Assembly: GCF_000332095.2 (NCBI RefSeq)
Contig: NZ_KI913949.1
Coordinates: 3,284,512 to 3,348,511 of the forward strand
DNA from: Leptolyngbya sp. PCC 6406
GTDB lineage: Bacteria > Cyanobacteriota > Cyanobacteriia > Phormidesmidales > Phormidesmidaceae
DNA length: 64,000 bases
Direction of reading: 5' to 3'
Below the pieces are notes generated by a model. That model was not told the DNA's origin, made no database searches, and worked only from the letters and a program-made list of their open reading frames with translations. How positions within the stretch are numbered: the stretch's first letter is position 1; every line of letters starts with the position of its first letter. Positions 5,619 through 50,531 of this stretch are shown one piece after another. The position numbers and the translations under genes are program-made.

Positions 5619-6140
5619 TTAGCTTAAAAAGGCTTGACGGCTGCTGGACTGACGACTGCCAGCACTGGGCTGGGGAGTCCCTTGACTGGGCTCGGGAGTC
5701 GGGGCATCTGCCTGTTCTAAGGACAAATCAATGCTGGCACGGACTGGGGTGCCATCGGGCATGAATAGGGTGAGCTTAAAGTTAAGGGTTTTGACAAAGC
5801 AGCGTAGATAATCATTGCTTCCCCAAGTGAAAAGATAAATGGGTGGACGCTTCCCTGCTCCTTCCCCAGAGGAGGCAAATTCAACAGCTTTAGTAAATTT
5901 GCCCAGGGGAATGAGGACGCTGCTGCCGTCTTCGTAGGTGTCTAGAATAATATTGCTAATGCTCAAGCTATAGGGATTGGGATGCTTGAAACTGGTTTTG
6001 TTTTCCCCCGCTTGAGTCTGGGCACCAGGGGCTTGATCAATGGAGACAGAACGATTGAAGGTGAGTTCGGTGGGGTTGAACATGAACTCGATGTTTTCGC
6101 CACCATCGACGGCAATGAGTTTGGCTTTTTCTAGGGGCAC
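5619..6140 (-). CDS. CIS tube protein (Afp7-like, no LysM)
   Basis: 173 residues. The N-terminal fold of the contractile-injection-system tube protein is plain: KAKLIAVDGGENIEFMFNPTELTFNRS, then PLSISNIILDTY-type strands, IYLFTWGSNDYLRCFVKTLNFKLTLFMPDGTPVRASIDLSLEQ. In Afp7/Pvc7 this protein joins the tail tube to the spike hub, and its place directly before the VgrG gene fits. Unlike many relatives it lacks a C-terminal LysM and ends in a short Pro/Ser/Gln-rich tail (about residues 145-173). The start ATG follows a CGGAGGA site. The gene lies 18 bases after the giant repeat protein, so translational coupling is likely. Confidence 0.88.
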   Translation of the reverse strand: MPLEKAKLIAVDGGENIEFMFNPTELTFNRSVSIDQAPGAQTQAGENKTSFKHPNPYSLSISNIILDTYEDGSSVLIPLGKFTKAVEFASSGEGAGKRPPIYLFTWGSNDYLRCFVKTLNFKLTLFMPDGTPVRASIDLSLEQADAPTPEPSQGTPQPSAGSRQSSSRQAFLS

Positions 6141-6158: not shown

Positions 6159-9100
6159 TTAATATCGAGGGCCAAAACCATGGCGCTCTCGCTCAACAGC
6201 AAGGCGTTGACAGATCAGGTGATAGACCTGCTGTACCAGCTTATCCAGGGTTTCTGGCGATGCGCCACTGGTGGCTTGGTCTTCATTGGAGTTTTCAGGC
6301 TCGATGGTAGATGCTGTGGGTGTGGCTGTGGGTGTGCTCTCAAGTTTCCGTTGTAGGGTGAGGGTATCGCCGGAACTCGCGGTTGATTGGCGCAGGGCTG
6401 CAAGGGGCTGCAAATCGGGATAGGGGTCTGCCGGGGAAACAGAGGGCGGGGGTGAGGGACTTTCTCCAGAATCCCCTGTGCCGCTGATAAGTTCTTCAAT
6501 ACTGCCCCAAACGGTGGGAGGCAGAGTCGTTGTTTTGCGATCGCGAGTGGGAGGTGGGTCAGTTGGCGCTGTCGGATCGCTTTGGGCTTGCAGGAGGGAA
6601 GGGGATTGGGCCACTTTTCCCGCTGCTCCTACCAGACTGGGTACGGGGGGGCTGGGCTGGGTTGATCGCGCTGTAGTTACGGGAGTGTAGGCGGTTTCGG
6701 GGGAGAGTTGCGATGGCCTTTGACCGGCCTCTGGCCATTGCAGATCGCGATCCTCCTCTAGGGTGCGCTGTAAGGAGTTGCCCAGGGTTGGAGACAGGGG
6801 TTGCAGCACAGATAGAGCTTGCAACACCGTGGGCAAGGGGTACGAGGTATCCGCAGCAGTGATAGCCGTATCGGCATTGTCATCCGGACGAGCCCCCTGA
6901 GCAACGGTAGCAGTTCCCTCCGCAGGTTCATTTGACAAAACTGATTCTGAAGGCACCTCTGGGGTAGGAATTGATCCTGACTCTGGTGTCGTTTCCGTCG
7001 GAGCCGCCGGGGCAGAATCCAGGATAGGGGCGGCAAGGGTGTCGGGAATAGGGGCTGGAGCTGGGGATTGCGCCTCTGGAGTTAAACCCGGCACTCCATC
7101 TGGGGCTACTTGGCGAGCCACCGTCTCAGGGCTAGATACCTCAGAAATTTCCGCAATGTCCGCAGGGTAACCAGTGGAACGATTCGACAGGGGAGCAACA
7201 CTATCTCCAATAGCGGCAGATTCCGGGATATTTGACGGGATATCGCTAGGGAGTGGTGGTGGAGGATTGGGGATTGGGGCGCGTGAGGCGGCCCACCGCA
7301 CCTCTGCACTAGGATTGGTGATGTCAAAGGATGGGGAAGAAGTAGGGGACTCCGGGAACGGACTGGAAGTTGTGGCGAGTGAATCCATCCCGATGCTGCT
7401 GGATGGGCTAGCCTCAGGAGCCACCTGACGGTTGAGGATGCCAACATCGCCTTCGGGCGAGATTTGAGGCCGATCGGTAGTCGGGAATGTTTGATCCGTC
7501 GGGGGCAATTGGCCCGAACTGGGAGAAGCTGGCAGGATTTCGGGAGCCCGAGTGCCATCTGGACTCGGTATAGCAGACACGTCAGCTTCCCCTGTAACGG
7601 ACTGCGGAAACGGGCTAGGGGAAACTGCCGGGGACTTGGCGGATGGAGACAACTCTGTTCCGGCAAAATCCAAGTTCGGGGAAGCTTGCAGTAGAGCCCC
7701 CCCTGCGCCGGAGTCTGCTTGCGGGTCAGCAGGCTCTGGAACTGGTATAGCCGCTGGGCTAGAAGGAGATTGCAGAGTAGGCAGTTGTGCCCCTGCATCT
7801 GGAGAAGCTTGCAATGGGGATCCCGGCAATGGGGTGGCTACCGAGTTAGAAGATACTTGCGAACTGGACGACTCCACCACTGGGGCAGGAGCAGCCTGTA
7901 TCAGGGATTCTGGAGCCGACTCCACTGATGGACTAGGAGCAGCCTGTACCAGGGATTCTGGAGATGGAGTCACCTCTGGAACAGGAGCAGCTTGTAGCAA
8001 GGATTCTGGAGCCGATTCCATCGCTGGACTAGGAGCAGCCTGCCCCAGGGATCCAGGGGACGATTCCACCGCTGGACTAGGAGCAGTCTGTCCCATGGAT
8101 CCGGGGGATGATTCCGCTGTTTCGCCAGGAGAAACCTCTGGCAAATTAGGCGGTGCCGCCGCTAGGGTCGCTGCCGAGTCCGAATCAGCTTGCAACTGAG
8201 ATGCCGACCCGAATTCCACAACATCCCCTCCCGTAGGGTGGGCACTGCCCACCACAGAAGCAGCCTGGATCCCAGGAGGGCCAGATTCTTCTGCACCTGT
8301 CCCAGAAGATCCGGATACCGACATCACATCACGCTCCGTAGGGTGGGCACTGCCCACCACAGAAGCAGCCTGGATCCCAGGAGGATCAGATTCTTCTGCA
8401 CCTGTTCCGGAAGAGGGACCGGATTCTGTCATAGAAATGGCAGTAGGGTGGGCACTACCCACCACATCACTTAAAGATGAATCCGTCCCAGTGCTTAATG
8501 GGCTAGCCTCTGGCACTGCCTGACGGTTGAGGCTTTCAGCAGCGCCCTGGGACGAGATCTGAGGACGATCGGCAGTTGGGGATGGTTGATCCGTGGGGGG
8601 CAATTGGGCTGAACTGAGAGAGGCTTCCAGGGGCTCAGGTGGGGATAGTTCAGCATTCTCAGTGACTCCCTGAGGGGACGGACTGGGAGAAACTGGCAAG
8701 GATGGGACTGGCGGGGAAGCCTCTACTCCACCGGACTCCACACTGGACGAGGCTTGTAGCAAAGATTCCGTAGGCACGAAATCTTCTTCGCCAGGGGAAA
8801 CTTGCAACTCAGAAGATGCCGGGGCTGCTTCCGCCGTTGGACTAGGAAAGGCTTGCAATTGGGATTCTGGAGAAGATTGCGTTGCCGAACCAGATGAGAC
8901 AGACGGTTCCGGAGCTGATGCTGACGCTGGACTAGGAGAGGCTTGCAGTTGAGGAACTGATTCCACCGCTGGACTAGGAGAGGCTTGCAAGATAGACGAG
9001 TCTGCCGCCGAGATGGCAGAACCTTGCGGTAAGGATGGAGCGGCGGTGGATTCAGGAGTAGTCTGTGGCAGAGATCCTGAAGATGAAGGTGCTGCTGAGG

Positions 9101-10460
9101 TGGAAGAGTCTTGGGATGCCGACATCACATCACTCTCCGTAGGGTGGGCACTGCCCACCGCAGAAGCAGCCTGGATCCCAGGAGGACCAGATTCTTCTGC
9201 ACCTGTCCCGGAAGAGGGACCAGATTCTGCCATAGAAATGGCAGTAGGGTGGGCACTGCCCACCGCAAAAGATGAATCCTCCCCAGTGCTCAATGGGCTA
9301 GCCTCTGGCACTGCCTGACGGTTGAGGCTTTCAGCAGCACCCTTGGACGAGATCTGAGGACGATCGGCAGTTGGAGATGGTTGATCCGTGGGGGGCAATT
9401 GGGCTGAACTGAGAGAGGCTTGCAGAGGCTCAGGTGGGGATACTTCAGCATTCTCAGAGACTCCCTGAGGGGACGGACTGGGAGAAACTGGCAAGGATGG
9501 GACTGGCGGGGAACCCTCTACTCCACCGGGCTCCACACTGGACGAGGCTTGTAGCAAAGATTCCGTAGGCGCGAAATCTTCTTCACCAGAAGAAACTTGC
9601 AACTCAGAAGATGCCGGGATTGACTCCACCGCTGGGCTAGGAGAGGCTTCCAATTGGGATTCTGGAGAAGATGGCGTTGCCGAACCAGATAAGACAGACG
9701 GTTCCGGAGCTGATGCTGACGCTGGACTAGGAGAGGCTTGCAAGATATGGGCACTGCCCACCCCAGGAGATGCCTGTGAGGCATTTTGCTCACCAGGCAA
9801 CGCAGCGGGCTCCGCTGGAACTGCTTGCAAATCCGGCGGTGAGGGCGCTGGCGGCGGCGGTAGACCAGGGATAGAGGCCAGGGTGCCGGGGTGCTGGCGC
9901 TGAGCGCGGGGGGGCATCTGCCCCGGACGGGCAGGGCTATCCGGGCGACGCAACGGACGAAGGGTGGAAGATTGGAGAGTGGGAGATTGTGGGGGAACTG
10001 GCGAGACCAGGGGCTGACGCTGTAGCGGGGGGGCGGGGGGCGGCGGCGGCGTTTCGGGCAGGAAGGGAGTGATGTCGGTGAGGCTGCCGGGATGATCACG
10101 GCGGCGGCGGGTCGGAACTGTCGGCTCCGGCTGTCTCTGTACCGTTTCTCCGGCGGTATTGGCGGCAATGCTAGCTCCCAAGTCAGAATCGGGCTGATCG
10201 GTGGAGGCGGCTACCCAAGCTTCTGGGCTGATCTCCTCTGTCCCTTCATCCCCGGAATCATTGACCCCATCAGTCCCACTATCAGGCGCAGGCGTACCTA
10301 GGGGCGAGCGCAGATCGGGATCCAACACCCCCAGGAATCGCTCTCCCAATAGGGTTGTCCGCTGTAACCTCAGCCCTAGATTGCTCAGGGGCTGCAAGAC
10401 ACCCAGCGGCTTACTGGGTAGGTTAGAGACATTCTCCGGGGGTGGGGTGGGATCAGCCAT
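6159..10460 (-). CDS. giant Pro/Ser/Ala-rich repeat protein of the injection-system operon
   Basis: 1433 residues, almost entirely low-complexity Pro, Ser, Ala, Glu and Gln; probably disordered. I recognise no catalytic domain and no signal peptide. Recurrent motifs are LQASPSP, LQR/LNRQ, and VGSAHPT. Two blocks of about 210 residues (about 235-443 and 495-710) are near-identical duplicates also visible in DNA (8329-8975 and 9131-9760), and a third, decayed copy of an 80-residue module (PPTDQ...DRPQIS...LNRQ) lies at about 7390-7640. The last 30 residues are different: ordered, charged and helical (LVQQVYHLICQRLAVERERHG), ending in RY, and resemble the end of the 83-residue protein encoded at 11087-11338. 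It sits between tube-family and Afp7-like genes, so a structural, sheath/tube-associated or tail-fibre-like role is plausible; this is inference. Length is likely variable between strains because of the repeats. Confidence 0.8.
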   Translation of the reverse strand: MADPTPPPENVSNLPSKPLGVLQPLSNLGLRLQRTTLLGERFLGVLDPDLRSPLGTPAPDSGTDGVNDSGDEGTEEISPEAWVAASTDQPDSDLGASIAANTAGETVQRQPEPTVPTRRRRDHPGSLTDITPFLPETPPPPPAPPLQRQPLVSPVPPQSPTLQSSTLRPLRRPDSPARPGQMPPRAQRQHPGTLASIPGLPPPPAPSPPDLQAVPAEPAALPGEQNASQASPGVGSAHILQASPSPASASAPEPSVLSGSATPSSPESQLEASPSPAVESIPASSELQVSSGEEDFAPTESLLQASSSVEPGGVEGSPPVPSLPVSPSPSPQGVSENAEVSPPEPLQASLSSAQLPPTDQPSPTADRPQISSKGAAESLNRQAVPEASPLSTGEDSSFAVGSAHPTAISMAESGPSSGTGAEESGPPGIQAASAVGSAHPTESDVMSASQDSSTSAAPSSSGSLPQTTPESTAAPSLPQGSAISAADSSILQASPSPAVESVPQLQASPSPASASAPEPSVSSGSATQSSPESQLQAFPSPTAEAAPASSELQVSPGEEDFVPTESLLQASSSVESGGVEASPPVPSLPVSPSPSPQGVTENAELSPPEPLEASLSSAQLPPTDQPSPTADRPQISSQGAAESLNRQAVPEASPLSTGTDSSLSDVVGSAHPTAISMTESGPSSGTGAEESDPPGIQAASVVGSAHPTERDVMSVSGSSGTGAEESGPPGIQAASVVGSAHPTGGDVVEFGSASQLQADSDSAATLAAAPPNLPEVSPGETAESSPGSMGQTAPSPAVESSPGSLGQAAPSPAMESAPESLLQAAPVPEVTPSPESLVQAAPSPSVESAPESLIQAAPAPVVESSSSQVSSNSVATPLPGSPLQASPDAGAQLPTLQSPSSPAAIPVPEPADPQADSGAGGALLQASPNLDFAGTELSPSAKSPAVSPSPFPQSVTGEADVSAIPSPDGTRAPEILPASPSSGQLPPTDQTFPTTDRPQISPEGDVGILNRQVAPEASPSSSIGMDSLATTSSPFPESPTSSPSFDITNPSAEVRWAASRAPIPNPPPPLPSDIPSNIPESAAIGDSVAPLSNRSTGYPADIAEISEVSSPETVARQVAPDGVPGLTPEAQSPAPAPIPDTLAAPILDSAPAAPTETTPESGSIPTPEVPSESVLSNEPAEGTATVAQGARPDDNADTAITAADTSYPLPTVLQALSVLQPLSPTLGNSLQRTLEEDRDLQWPEAGQRPSQLSPETAYTPVTTARSTQPSPPVPSLVGAAGKVAQSPSLLQAQSDPTAPTDPPPTRDRKTTTLPPTVWGSIEELISGTGDSGESPSPPPSVSPADPYPDLQPLAALRQSTASSGDTLTLQRKLESTPTATPTASTIEPENSNEDQATSGASPETLDKLVQQVYHLICQRLAVERERHGFGPRY
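8233..9263. repeat. palindromic GTAGGGTGGGCACTGCCCACC elements inside a coding region
   Basis: Copies at 8233-8253, 8338-8358, 8443-8463 (one change), 9139-9159 and 9243-9263, plus a decayed one near 9747-9763. Each reads in the minus-strand protein as VGSAHPT. A partial intergenic copy (GTGAGCACTGCCCACC) occurs at about 48112-48127. The element is a near-perfect palindrome around GGGCA-C-TGCCC. The copies are partly explained by the large internal duplication of the gene. Confidence 0.85.
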
Positions 10461-10562: not shown

Positions 10563-11087
10563 CTAGGAAGAAGAGGCAATATATCCCGTCTTATCACGCT
10601 TCTGGTCAGTGGCTGCACCACCCCCACTGGATTCAGTGATGATCTTGAGACCTTCGTAGGCCAACACTAACTCCTCTACCGCAACGCTGTTAGAGTCGGC
10701 CTTGAGGGCGGGGGTTTTCCAGCCGACGGGGATGGCCCCCAAGAGAGACCATGCTTGCATAGTTTCCCCGGCCTGGTTAAAGACCAAAATATTGATATTG
10801 CGTCGCTCTGGCTTACCTTCTTCCAGCGTTTTGTTAATCCAATTCCAGAACGTGAGATCATCGGTAATCCCTCGCTTTAGGGTAATATCCCCAAACTTAG
10901 CCCGCTTGAGAAAAATACGCTGCTGTTCGTTAGCGCCGCCTTCAAAGTAGGTGTCCTTTTCGATCTGCACATCAATACCAGAGCATTCGCTAAAGGATGC
11001 GGCTAAGCTGCTATCCATCTCCACATAGAAGCGGTTGGTGGTGACGTGGTTGACGCCATAGTTTTCACTGTTGCTTTGCTCGGACAT
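10563..11087 (-). CDS. tail tube-family protein (gp19-like), fourth paralogue
   Basis: 174 residues, of the T4 gp19/phage tail tube family. Diagnostic stretches are NRFYVEMDSSLAASFSECSGIDVQIE near the N-terminus, ITLKRGITDDLTFWNWINKTLEEG in the middle, and VAVEELVLAYEGLKI near the C-terminus. A 20-residue Gly/Ser/Lys tail follows. In AFP-type machines a tube-initiator paralogue (Afp5) is encoded upstream of the Afp7 and Afp8 genes; the position here, away from the three tandem tube genes and near the hub genes, suggests that role. Its start codon overlaps the stop of the 83-residue gene by one base (TAATG), so the two are translationally coupled. Confidence 0.9.
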   Translation of the reverse strand: MSEQSNSENYGVNHVTTNRFYVEMDSSLAASFSECSGIDVQIEKDTYFEGGANEQQRIFLKRAKFGDITLKRGITDDLTFWNWINKTLEEGKPERRNINILVFNQAGETMQAWSLLGAIPVGWKTPALKADSNSVAVEELVLAYEGLKIITESSGGGAATDQKRDKTGYIASSS

Positions 11088-16128: not shown

Positions 16129-17841
16129 TTACTGGTTGGGAGCCCACTGGCTAATGCGGAAGATGACAAATTCCGCCGGACGCACCGGGCAGACGCCAAT
16201 TTCCACATAGAGACGACCCATCATCATGGTGTCGGGAGTGTTCAACTCGCCATCACACTTGACATAGAAGGCTTCGGCGGGGGAAGCCCCAAAGAGAGCG
16301 CCTTCTCGCCATAGCCGTGCCAGGAAGGTGCTGACGGTACGGCTGACCCGAGCCCATAGATCCATATCGTTAGGCTCGAAAACCACCCATTGGGTGCCAA
16401 TTTCGATGGACTTTTCGATGTAGCTGAGCAGACGGCGGACGCTGATGTAGCGCCATTGGATGTTGTCGGGCTCGACCAGGGTGCGGGCTCCCCACACCTT
16501 GTAGCCCCGGTTGTAGTTGGCAAAGTTGCGGATACAGTTGATGCCCAAGGGGTTCAACAGTTCCTGCTCTCGCATATTGGTTTCGTAGGCTAGGCCCAGC
16601 ACGCCCCGAGGCGTTTCGTTGGCGGGAGCCTTAAAGACACCCCGAGATTCGTCGGTGCGGCACCAGATACCCATCATGTGACCGCAGGGGGGCACAAAGA
16701 TGGGGCGACCCCCGTTGCGGGGGTTGGCCACCTTAATCCAGGGGTAATACAGGGCTCCAAACATGGAGCGGCGGTTGAAAGCGGAAAGCCACTCGGCGAC
16801 ATGCTGGGGACGCTGGGTTTCGGGGGCAACGGCGGCATTCTCGTTTTTGCCCACCTTGACCGGCGGGGGATCGAGCACTGCCATGCGGTAGGCGGGGCCA
16901 GGGAAGGAGTTTTCGCACAGACTCACGAGCATTTCCATGACGCCATGGACTTGATCTAGGTCCAGGAGACCCACTTGGTAGGCCCGCATCAGGTCGGGGC
17001 AGGCGATCATGGCAACTTCGTCAATCTCAAAGAGCCCCTGGATACCTTGGCGGTCGTCTCGGACCCCTTGGATATCACGGGTGATGCGCTCGGGGGGAGA
17101 GATATAGGGCGGGGGCGCGACTTCATAAAAGCCGTTGCCGGGACGGCGAGAGAGCGCCTGACCGCTAACGGAAATGTCATTGGCGACGACGTATTCCGAA
17201 GCCTCCAGTACCGCAACGGCATAGTCGGCAACGGCGGTTTCTACCTGGGGATTCATGCTCAGGTGGTCGTAGCGCTCTAGCTCCTCGCCACCGCTCTTGA
17301 CCACCAAGTTGAAGAACTCCCCGGTATCGAGGGGGGGCTCAGCGCCCTCTGGGGCATCCTCTGGGAGGGGTTTGGGGGTGCTTTCTTCGATGGCGATGAT
17401 GATGCGGGCATCTTCACCGGGGGGAAGTAGGGCCTGTTCATCGCCTTCAGGTAACCGGAGATTAACACTGATGGAAGGCTTGCCACCAGCGGTGGGGAGG
17501 CGAGTAGCAACCTCTTCTGGGGGCGGGGGGGGGGAGCCGGGGAGCTTGGTGCCAATGCTGACCACCCAGCAGCGACCGCCGCCGTTGTTAAACCAGCCCT
17601 GAACCGCAAAAGGGAGGTAAGCGTCGAAGTCGGTGAAGCCATCGGAACCCGGTTTGGCAAAAAATTCGACGTATTGGCTCCAGTTGGTGATCATCATGGG
17701 CTTGAAGAGTTCGGCATCACCCCGAACGTCTTCAGTGAAGCCGACAAATCCGGCTACGCTCATGCTGACCCCTTCAATGGGGCGACTGCCTCGGTCTACC
17801 TCTTCGACGTATACCCCAGGCGCAAAGTAGTCCAATGCCAT
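16129..17841 (-). CDS. contractile tail sheath protein
   Basis: 570 residues from the ATG at 17841, which is preceded by an AGAGGAA ribosome-binding site; a frame extension to 17883 is not conserved-looking and was rejected. Sheath N-terminus: YFAPGVYVEEVDRGSRPIEG, then SVAGFVGFTE. Sheath C-terminal domain: LAYETNMREQELLNPLGINC, GYKVWGARTL, WRYISVRRLLSYIEKSIEIG, and the terminal strand VEIGVCPVRPAEFVIFRISQ, which exchanges between subunits. A large variable insertion (about residues 80-260, acidic and Pro-rich) would face the particle surface. Only one sheath gene is present, whereas AFP has three. It opens the operon and is followed by the tube genes. Confidence 0.95.
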   Translation of the reverse strand: MALDYFAPGVYVEEVDRGSRPIEGVSMSVAGFVGFTEDVRGDAELFKPMMITNWSQYVEFFAKPGSDGFTDFDAYLPFAVQGWFNNGGGRCWVVSIGTKLPGSPPPPPEEVATRLPTAGGKPSISVNLRLPEGDEQALLPPGEDARIIIAIEESTPKPLPEDAPEGAEPPLDTGEFFNLVVKSGGEELERYDHLSMNPQVETAVADYAVAVLEASEYVVANDISVSGQALSRRPGNGFYEVAPPPYISPPERITRDIQGVRDDRQGIQGLFEIDEVAMIACPDLMRAYQVGLLDLDQVHGVMEMLVSLCENSFPGPAYRMAVLDPPPVKVGKNENAAVAPETQRPQHVAEWLSAFNRRSMFGALYYPWIKVANPRNGGRPIFVPPCGHMMGIWCRTDESRGVFKAPANETPRGVLGLAYETNMREQELLNPLGINCIRNFANYNRGYKVWGARTLVEPDNIQWRYISVRRLLSYIEKSIEIGTQWVVFEPNDMDLWARVSRTVSTFLARLWREGALFGASPAEAFYVKCDGELNTPDTMMMGRLYVEIGVCPVRPAEFVIFRISQWAPNQ

Positions 17842-17895
17842 GCTTGAGTTCCTCTTCTGTTCACTACAGGCTTGACGCCCCAAGGCTGGATGACG

Positions 17896-48072: not shown

Positions 48073-48570
48073 ATAGTCGATTTTTTTTGGAATGTGTTCA
48101 GCAAGTAGAGTGAGCACTGCCCACCACATCCAACCCCTTCCCTACAAAATCTGCCTCCCTACAGGCCCAATCTTCCCCATACATTCCCGCCCCCACAAAC
48201 CGCCGAAAACTCCCATCCATGAGGGCACCTCACCAACACATACTTCACCGGGTTGTAGCACCCCAAACCCCTGCAAATCTGAGAAGCGCGATGGTCTCTT
48301 GATCATGCGACATAGATAAACTGTGCTGAATTCAAAATATTGCATCGGCGTAGTAGTCCGACAAGCCTAAATTTGTAGTTTAAGTGATGTGATGGTAAAA
48401 CCCAAAAAAGCTTGCTGCTGTTGGGTTTCACTCCGTTTCATCCAACCTACGAGAACCTAAATTTTTAGTCTTGATGCTGTAGGTTGGGTAGAGCGCTAGC
48501 GGAACCCAACATCGCCGATAGTTTACCCACCCACCAACCCATCCTAAGTGCACAAACTCCCCCTCACCCC
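48073..48570. repeat. intergenic region with REP palindromes (left flank of RAYT)
   Basis: Contains GTTGGGTTTCACTCCGTTTC followed by ATCCAACCTACG (about 48419-48450) and GTAGGTTGGGT-AGAGCGCTAGCG-GAACCCAAC (about 48480-48511), both REP-type palindromes built on GTAGGTTGGGT/ACCCAAC. A partial GTGAGCACTGCCCACC element lies at about 48112. No gene is seen. Confidence 0.75.
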
Positions 48571-48745
48571 ATGCACTATCGCCGCGCCAAAACCCCAGGG
48601 GCCACCTACTTTTTCACCGTCGTCACCTACCAGCGGCAACCCCTATTCCAAAACCATGAAACCGTGGCCCTACTTCGCCACGCCTTTCACACCATCAAGA
48701 CAGAATTCCCCTTCACCATTGATGCCATCGTTGTCCTTCCCGATC

Positions 48746-50113: not shown

Positions 50114-50493
50114 CGATCACATCCATAGCATTTGGACGCTGCCTCAAGACGATGCCGATTTCTCGACTCGGTGGCAACGCATCAAAGCCCGATTTAGCCT
50201 GCGGTGCCCCGATATCTACAAACCACAACCATCCAGCTCGCGCTCACGTAAAGGCGAACAAGCCATCTGGCAGCGCCGATTTTGGGAGCACCAAATTCGT
50301 AATGAGGCCGACTTTAGCCAGCATGTGGATTACATTCACTACAATCCGGTGAAGCATGGTCTTGTAGACAAGCCAAGGGATTGGCCTTATTCGAGTTTTC
50401 ACCGCTATGTTGCAGATGGGGCTTATTCGGTAGATTGGGGGGCAACAGAAGCGATCGCGCTGGATGACAAAATTGGTTTTGAGTAGGGGGCTG

Positions 50494-50531
50494 TGGGTGT
50501 TGGGTTCCACTGCGTTCCACCCAACCTACCA
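50494..50531. repeat. REP palindrome (right flank of RAYT)
   Basis: GTTGGGTTCCACTGCGTTCC followed by ACCCAACCTACC, a palindrome with the same arms as those at 48419-48511 and 63513-63590. Immediately follows the RAYT stop. Confidence 0.85.

Follow-up and report, generated by a model that had tools for sequence, protein, structure and literature searches.

A GTAG-tagged REP associated with one RAYT clade and read in frame in a giant injection-system gene and other cyanobacterial proteins

The 21-bp palindrome that recurs within a giant gene of Leptolyngbya sp. PCC 6406 is a GTAG-tagged REP, a known class to which its tag and short stem assign it at class level. The explanation we retain as a whole, with a probability of roughly 0.9, is that of a RAYT-linked GTAG-REP, mostly intergenic, which has been recruited in frame into proteins. 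This REP has dispersed through cyanobacterial genomes, its copying being most probably the work of a cognate Y1/HuH RAYT belonging to one clade, and most copies have settled between genes. Some have landed in proteins, in tolerant loops or in disordered linkers, where a copy would contribute a short stretch of residues that reads VGxAHPT, VGWALPT or GGQCPPY, depending on its orientation and phase.

The giant gene lies in a window of 64,000 nucleotides, which is the whole stretch of DNA analysed (Table 1). Its Ser/Pro-rich, low-complexity product has no Pfam match, but the neighbouring genes, which encode the gp19 tube, CIS_tube, a VgrG-like protein (next in the operon) and the sheath, make it part of a contractile injection system. 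As an earlier note on this DNA had reported, the palindrome is present five times in the gene in one and the same frame, always read as VGSAHPT; four copies are exact and one carries a mismatch, so that they differ at 0-1 of 21 positions. A sixth copy, truncated and reading VGSAHIL, had escaped that count. The spacings between successive copies (105, 105, 696 and 105 nt) are all multiples of three. None of 100 dinucleotide shuffles contained the palindrome, for a chance expectation of zero.

Table 1. Features of the window and of one locus elsewhere in the genome (C1, contig coordinates)
Feature	Position	Strand	Remarks
CIS_tube protein (PF19266)	5619..6140	-	syntenic anchor for locating orthologous loci
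Giant Ser/Pro-rich low-complexity protein, 1,433 aa	6159..10460	-	host of in-frame REPs; contractile-injection-system operon
Internal empty site	7370..7380	-	from DNA alignment of three ~800-nt repeat copies
REP copy 1	8233..8253	+	exact GTAGGGTGGGCACTGCCCACC; VGSAHPT, aa 737-743, on minus strand
REP copy 2	8338..8358	+	exact GTAGGGTGGGCACTGCCCACC; VGSAHPT, aa 702-708
REP copy 3	8443..8463	+	one silent mismatch to GTAGGGTGGGCACTGCCCACC; VGSAHPT, aa 667-673
REP copy 4	9139..9159	+	exact GTAGGGTGGGCACTGCCCACC; VGSAHPT, aa 435-441
REP copy 5	9244..9264	+	exact GTAGGGTGGGCACTGCCCACC; VGSAHPT, aa 400-406
Sixth REP copy, truncated	about 9747..9762	+	VGSAHIL, aa 234
gp19 tube gene	10563-11087		giant gene lies between gp19 and CIS_tube genes
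Sheath gene	16129-17883		
REP copy, intergenic	48105..48125	+	two mismatches; 32 bp beyond probable RAYT C-terminal remnant
Probable cognate RAYT C-terminus remnant	48158..48257	-	tblastn; aa 136-171, two frame-shifted pieces
RAYT C-terminal remnant, 61 aa (L013)	C1:907416-907592		palindrome within about 10 bp after

The history of these copies can be traced through the coding repeats that carry them. Of the ~800-nt repeat there is a third, diverged copy, which can be aligned to the left and to the right of the REP site but has no REP in between; the net length difference is 18 bp and not 21, so the boundaries of this internal empty site are approximate. Between the two ~800-nt repeat copies, the 84-nt spacer that separates REPs has 5 differences in 84 positions; in the third tandem unit it has 26 in 84. 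This coding spacer of the 105-nt unit was not found elsewhere in the genome, where only the palindrome recurs. Taken together, the empty site, the spacer divergence and the confinement of the spacer to the giant gene indicate that the five copies derive from one or two REP insertions, later multiplied by duplication of the 105-nt and ~800-nt repeats. The copies had been taken as recruitments: an interspersed element is indeed read in frame, but the events are fewer than the copies.

When the giant protein was used as query in relatives, a single weak N-terminal match was obtained, and orthologues were therefore located through the neighbouring CIS_tube gene. In 14 relatives (L115-L121, L123-L129) the syntenic genes encode proteins that are likewise long and of low complexity and whose C-terminus is conserved; none contains the palindrome, several of them being incomplete N-terminally. 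The orthologue of G006 (L125) carries, twice and in frame, stretches of the LPRGEGLGMRAPALMAGTLLTGTSL type.

The element consists of a GTAG tag followed by the stem GGTGGGCA.N.TGCCCACC, hairpin form GTAGGGTGGGCANTGCCCACC, i.e. a stem-loop (7-8 bp stem, minimal loop) with GTAG left unpaired at one of its ends. The class was defined by an unpaired GTAG and a 20-40 bp stem-loop (Di Nocera et al. 2013, PMC3733652), and is linked to RAYT transposases that recognise GTAG (PMC8266576). Head-to-head dimers also exist, with eight such pairs in this genome, seven of which belong to one related family of ~172 bp. A literature search for the exact palindrome sequence returned unrelated papers only.

The genome (5.78 Mb) contains 53 well-formed copies; with up to 3 mismatches allowed there are 133 matches (both strands of near-palindromes being counted) versus 0 for the reversed control. 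Long genes hold ten of the 53. The giant gene accounts for four (its copy with a stem mismatch being left out) and PriA for three; two identical CobN genes have one apiece, and a caspase-type protein has the last. For the remaining 43 there is either no long ORF that spans them or only a likely 5′ extension, gene membership being judged by ORF length, plus homology for the named cases, and with no gene caller. This bears out the view of the palindrome as a non-coding type of repeat, as does the partial intergenic copy announced at about 48112, which proved to be the one at 48105. Exact copies are present in 26 of the 59 genomes searched, this one included, with a maximum of 100 in one of them. 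Among the matches listed in a scan of species genomes, the palindrome occurs in Cyanobacteria, Planctomycetota, delta- and gammaproteobacterial genomes and others, and 112 of 138 such copies are in no long ORF; in further relatives this holds for 86 of 97. Long ORFs spanning the palindrome in planctomycetes were dismissed as spurious, and four ORFs (a TonB receptor, L148, and L017, L019 and L040) were set aside as 5′ extensions, the palindrome being upstream of likelier starts.

As GTAG-REPs are tied to RAYTs in the literature, RAYT genes were sought near the palindrome. Palindrome-rich relatives possess several Y1_Tnp genes in its vicinity, which together form one clade, and the 59 genomes were searched with a member of this clade (P0006). 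RAYTs of the P0006 clade have the palindrome at their ends in 8 of 8 loci, some copies being degenerate, and at a near-constant position, ~60 bp upstream and/or 11-28 bp downstream; that of L303 (G004) is bordered on both sides, GTAG outward. Less similar RAYTs have it nearby in 0 of 22 loci, save one poor match 930 bp off (8/8 versus 0/22, Fisher p = 1.7e-7). This co-location points to a P0006-clade RAYT (Y1) as the likely mobiliser of the palindrome. Two other Y1_Tnp genes detected with Pfam in the Leptolyngbya genome were rejected for this role, neither having a palindrome nearby and one of them, L044, being flanked by another REP.

In this genome the P0006 clade is represented by remnants, no intact member having been found. 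One is the C-terminal piece at L013. The other, in the window, rests on two short matches of 19 aa each, with 68% and 63% identity, and the REP copy at 48105 probably adjoins the decayed 3′ end of a RAYT. The seven pairs of the ~172-bp family, with their GTAG ends outward, read in their interior PENVRRLRYAMATIKANMPF, which matches RAYT residues 30-49, and the RAYT-match score of each is above all 300 shuffles. Their right end also resembles the 3′ end of the L303 RAYT (72.7% over 55 bp, E 3.7e-4). Since they contain RAYT-derived sequence, these pairs look like internally deleted REPtrons. With its cognate transposase apparently decayed to remnants, the palindrome family has probably stopped moving in this genome.

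Recruitment is not restricted to the giant gene. PriA of the same genome includes three units, VGSAHPT, VGGAHPT and VGTAHPT, 45 and 51 nt apart, between SATPSLES and VVDMR, in a loop of 74 residues compared with 12 in E. coli PriA. PriA of G021 has VGWALPT in this loop, which is how the same DNA reads when its orientation and frame are changed. CobN of the Leptolyngbya genome carries VGSAHPT in a linker, and no REP was seen in the CobN linker of the relatives read, which include the same-genus G002 and G003; the absence of VGSAHPT from homologues, as anticipated, thus extends from the 14 syntenic orthologues to CobN. As loop lengths of PriA and CobN vary among relatives, exact insertion boundaries are unfixed there. 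The caspase-type protein, which has a C-terminal sulfatase-modifying-like region (domain names were assigned by eye), reads VGWAPPT in a different frame. In relatives, alignment to solved structures places REP peptides in variable loops of NRPS adenylation domains, namely VGSAHPT in two domains of G024 and GGQCPPY in one domain of G029. In all, we count some seven independent recruitments, which involve four genomes and three frames; VGxAHPT accounts for four of them, and the number is too small for any frame preference to be claimed. A fixed VGSAHPT frame was rejected: the common frame holds for all copies of the giant gene, but other proteins use VGWALPT or GGQCPPY.

The two CobN loci with an in-frame REP (C1:773535-776552 and C1:780526-783543) lie 7 kb from each other and show 100% identity over 3 kb, reflecting either a recent duplication or an assembly artefact. 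Other dispersed repeats are also read in frame, such as LSPWERGRGEG in CobN of this genome (L011/L075) and PLPQGEGPGERG in CobN of G014 (L082). Heptanucleotide-type repeats KSKIQNPKSKIQN and PPIHPSTHPPIHP are found in the same loops, in PriA of G009 (L058) and in CobN of G021 and G009 (L083, L096). These loops of PriA and CobN, being shared with other repeats, are general landing sites for repeats.

A unit of 21 bp corresponds to seven codons and has a stop in one of the six frames only, so that a single insertion would usually leave a gene open. One could go further and suppose that the family has been shaped for life in genes, its seven-codon length and five open frames being kept for survival in coding sequence. 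We consider this unlikely; if true, such a gene-adapted REP would constantly supply cyanobacterial enzymes and secretion machines with new linker peptides. Slightly less probable still, in our opinion, is that the element functions as a signal in DNA or RNA (a translation-slowing hairpin, a gyrase or repair site, a recombination hot spot) placed for its nucleic-acid effect. Its hairpin in mRNA is strong (-24.3 kcal/mol, z = -2.6), and the copies of the giant gene and of PriA are surrounded by tandem duplications, yet its position is not conserved in homologues and the occupied sites are variable loops, as expected of tolerated insertions.

It is more doubtful that VGSAHPT serves the injection-system protein as a functional peptide module, maintained and amplified by selection, its likeness to an intergenic palindrome being secondary. 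The near-identical giant-gene copies share one frame, which is also that of PriA, CobN and an NRPS. However, the syntenic orthologues of 14 relatives lack the motif, other proteins read other frames of the same DNA, the palindrome itself is conserved at the DNA level, which a peptide does not need, and the same DNA is intergenic across several phyla among the matches listed. The reverse direction, in which coding repeats of the giant gene with its five copies gave rise to the intergenic palindromes, is refuted by the distribution of the palindrome in many cyanobacteria, planctomycetes and proteobacteria (among the matches listed), by its presence at RAYT gene ends, and by the adjoining 84-nt coding spacer, which never leaves the giant gene in this genome.

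A GTAG-REP recruited in frame, the reading we prefer, has counterparts in known systems. With the GTAG-REPs of Di Nocera et al. (PMC3733652), the palindrome shares the tag, a short perfect stem, a tiny loop and a mostly intergenic location, head-to-head pairing with the GTAG ends facing outward, the repeat at the borders of RAYT genes, and copies inside ORFs, several of which are in replication or repair genes, as PriA here. Cyanobacterial GTAG families 12, 15 and 16 were reported there, and we saw no cyanobacterial intragenic case named in the main text. The earlier note drew a parallel with Rickettsia RPEs (PMC10969869), palindromic selfish repeats that lie in frame in many unrelated proteins as well as between genes. 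In-frame insertion into unrelated proteins applies equally here (giant gene, PriA, CobN and caspase-type protein, NRPS in relatives), but RPEs are rickettsial elements of about 100-150 bp (about 150 bp in the cited review), whereas ours is a GTAG-tagged 21-bp REP linked to a RAYT clade in a cyanobacterium, and belongs to the REP class rather than to the RPE family. RPE-4 and RPE-6 have themselves been described as CGTC-tagged repeats (PMC3733652). Like REPINs (PMC3116915), the seven ~172-bp pairs are two inverted REPs dispersed as one unit; unlike them, they hold RAYT-derived sequence, and the intragenic copies are single REPs. REPs inside protein-coding genes of cyanobacteria are also known from tnpAREP genes of subclass 2.4, which is abundant in this phylum (PMC6006769), but there the host is the transposase itself and here unrelated cellular genes. 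Events of this kind, in which a selfish REP is recruited in frame, are thus known; the cases described here are new.

That a selfish repeat creates new protein sequence, as had been proposed, is sustained as far as recurrent in-frame recruitment and the homologues without it are concerned; that the REP peptide is made and tolerated, and useful or neutral, is what we infer from the sequences. What emerges is a clean parallel, in cyanobacteria, to the Rickettsia RPEs: an element, the transposase clade that probably moves it, derivative mini-elements and several target proteins in which it is read in frame. Among these targets, PriA, CobN and NRPS adenylation domains are well studied, and the cost of an added REP peptide can be measured in them. 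VGxAHPT, VGWALPT and GGQCPPY in cyanobacterial proteins may be repeat-derived and not conserved motifs.

Other GTAG repeats accompany other RAYTs. At L044 (C1:4735405-4738773) the Leptolyngbya genome has an intact RAYT flanked by such a repeat, GTAGGGTGCATT...AATGCACC, and RAYTs L281, L288 and L292 of relatives are 76-82% identical to it. The window holds a second RAYT gene of another type (48577-48744 and 50115-50504, plus strand), split by an IS with a DDE transposase (PF13546/PF01609; 48784-49950, minus strand) and bordered by another GTAG repeat, GTAGGTTGGGT...ACCCAAC, at about 48479-48511 and 50500-50530.
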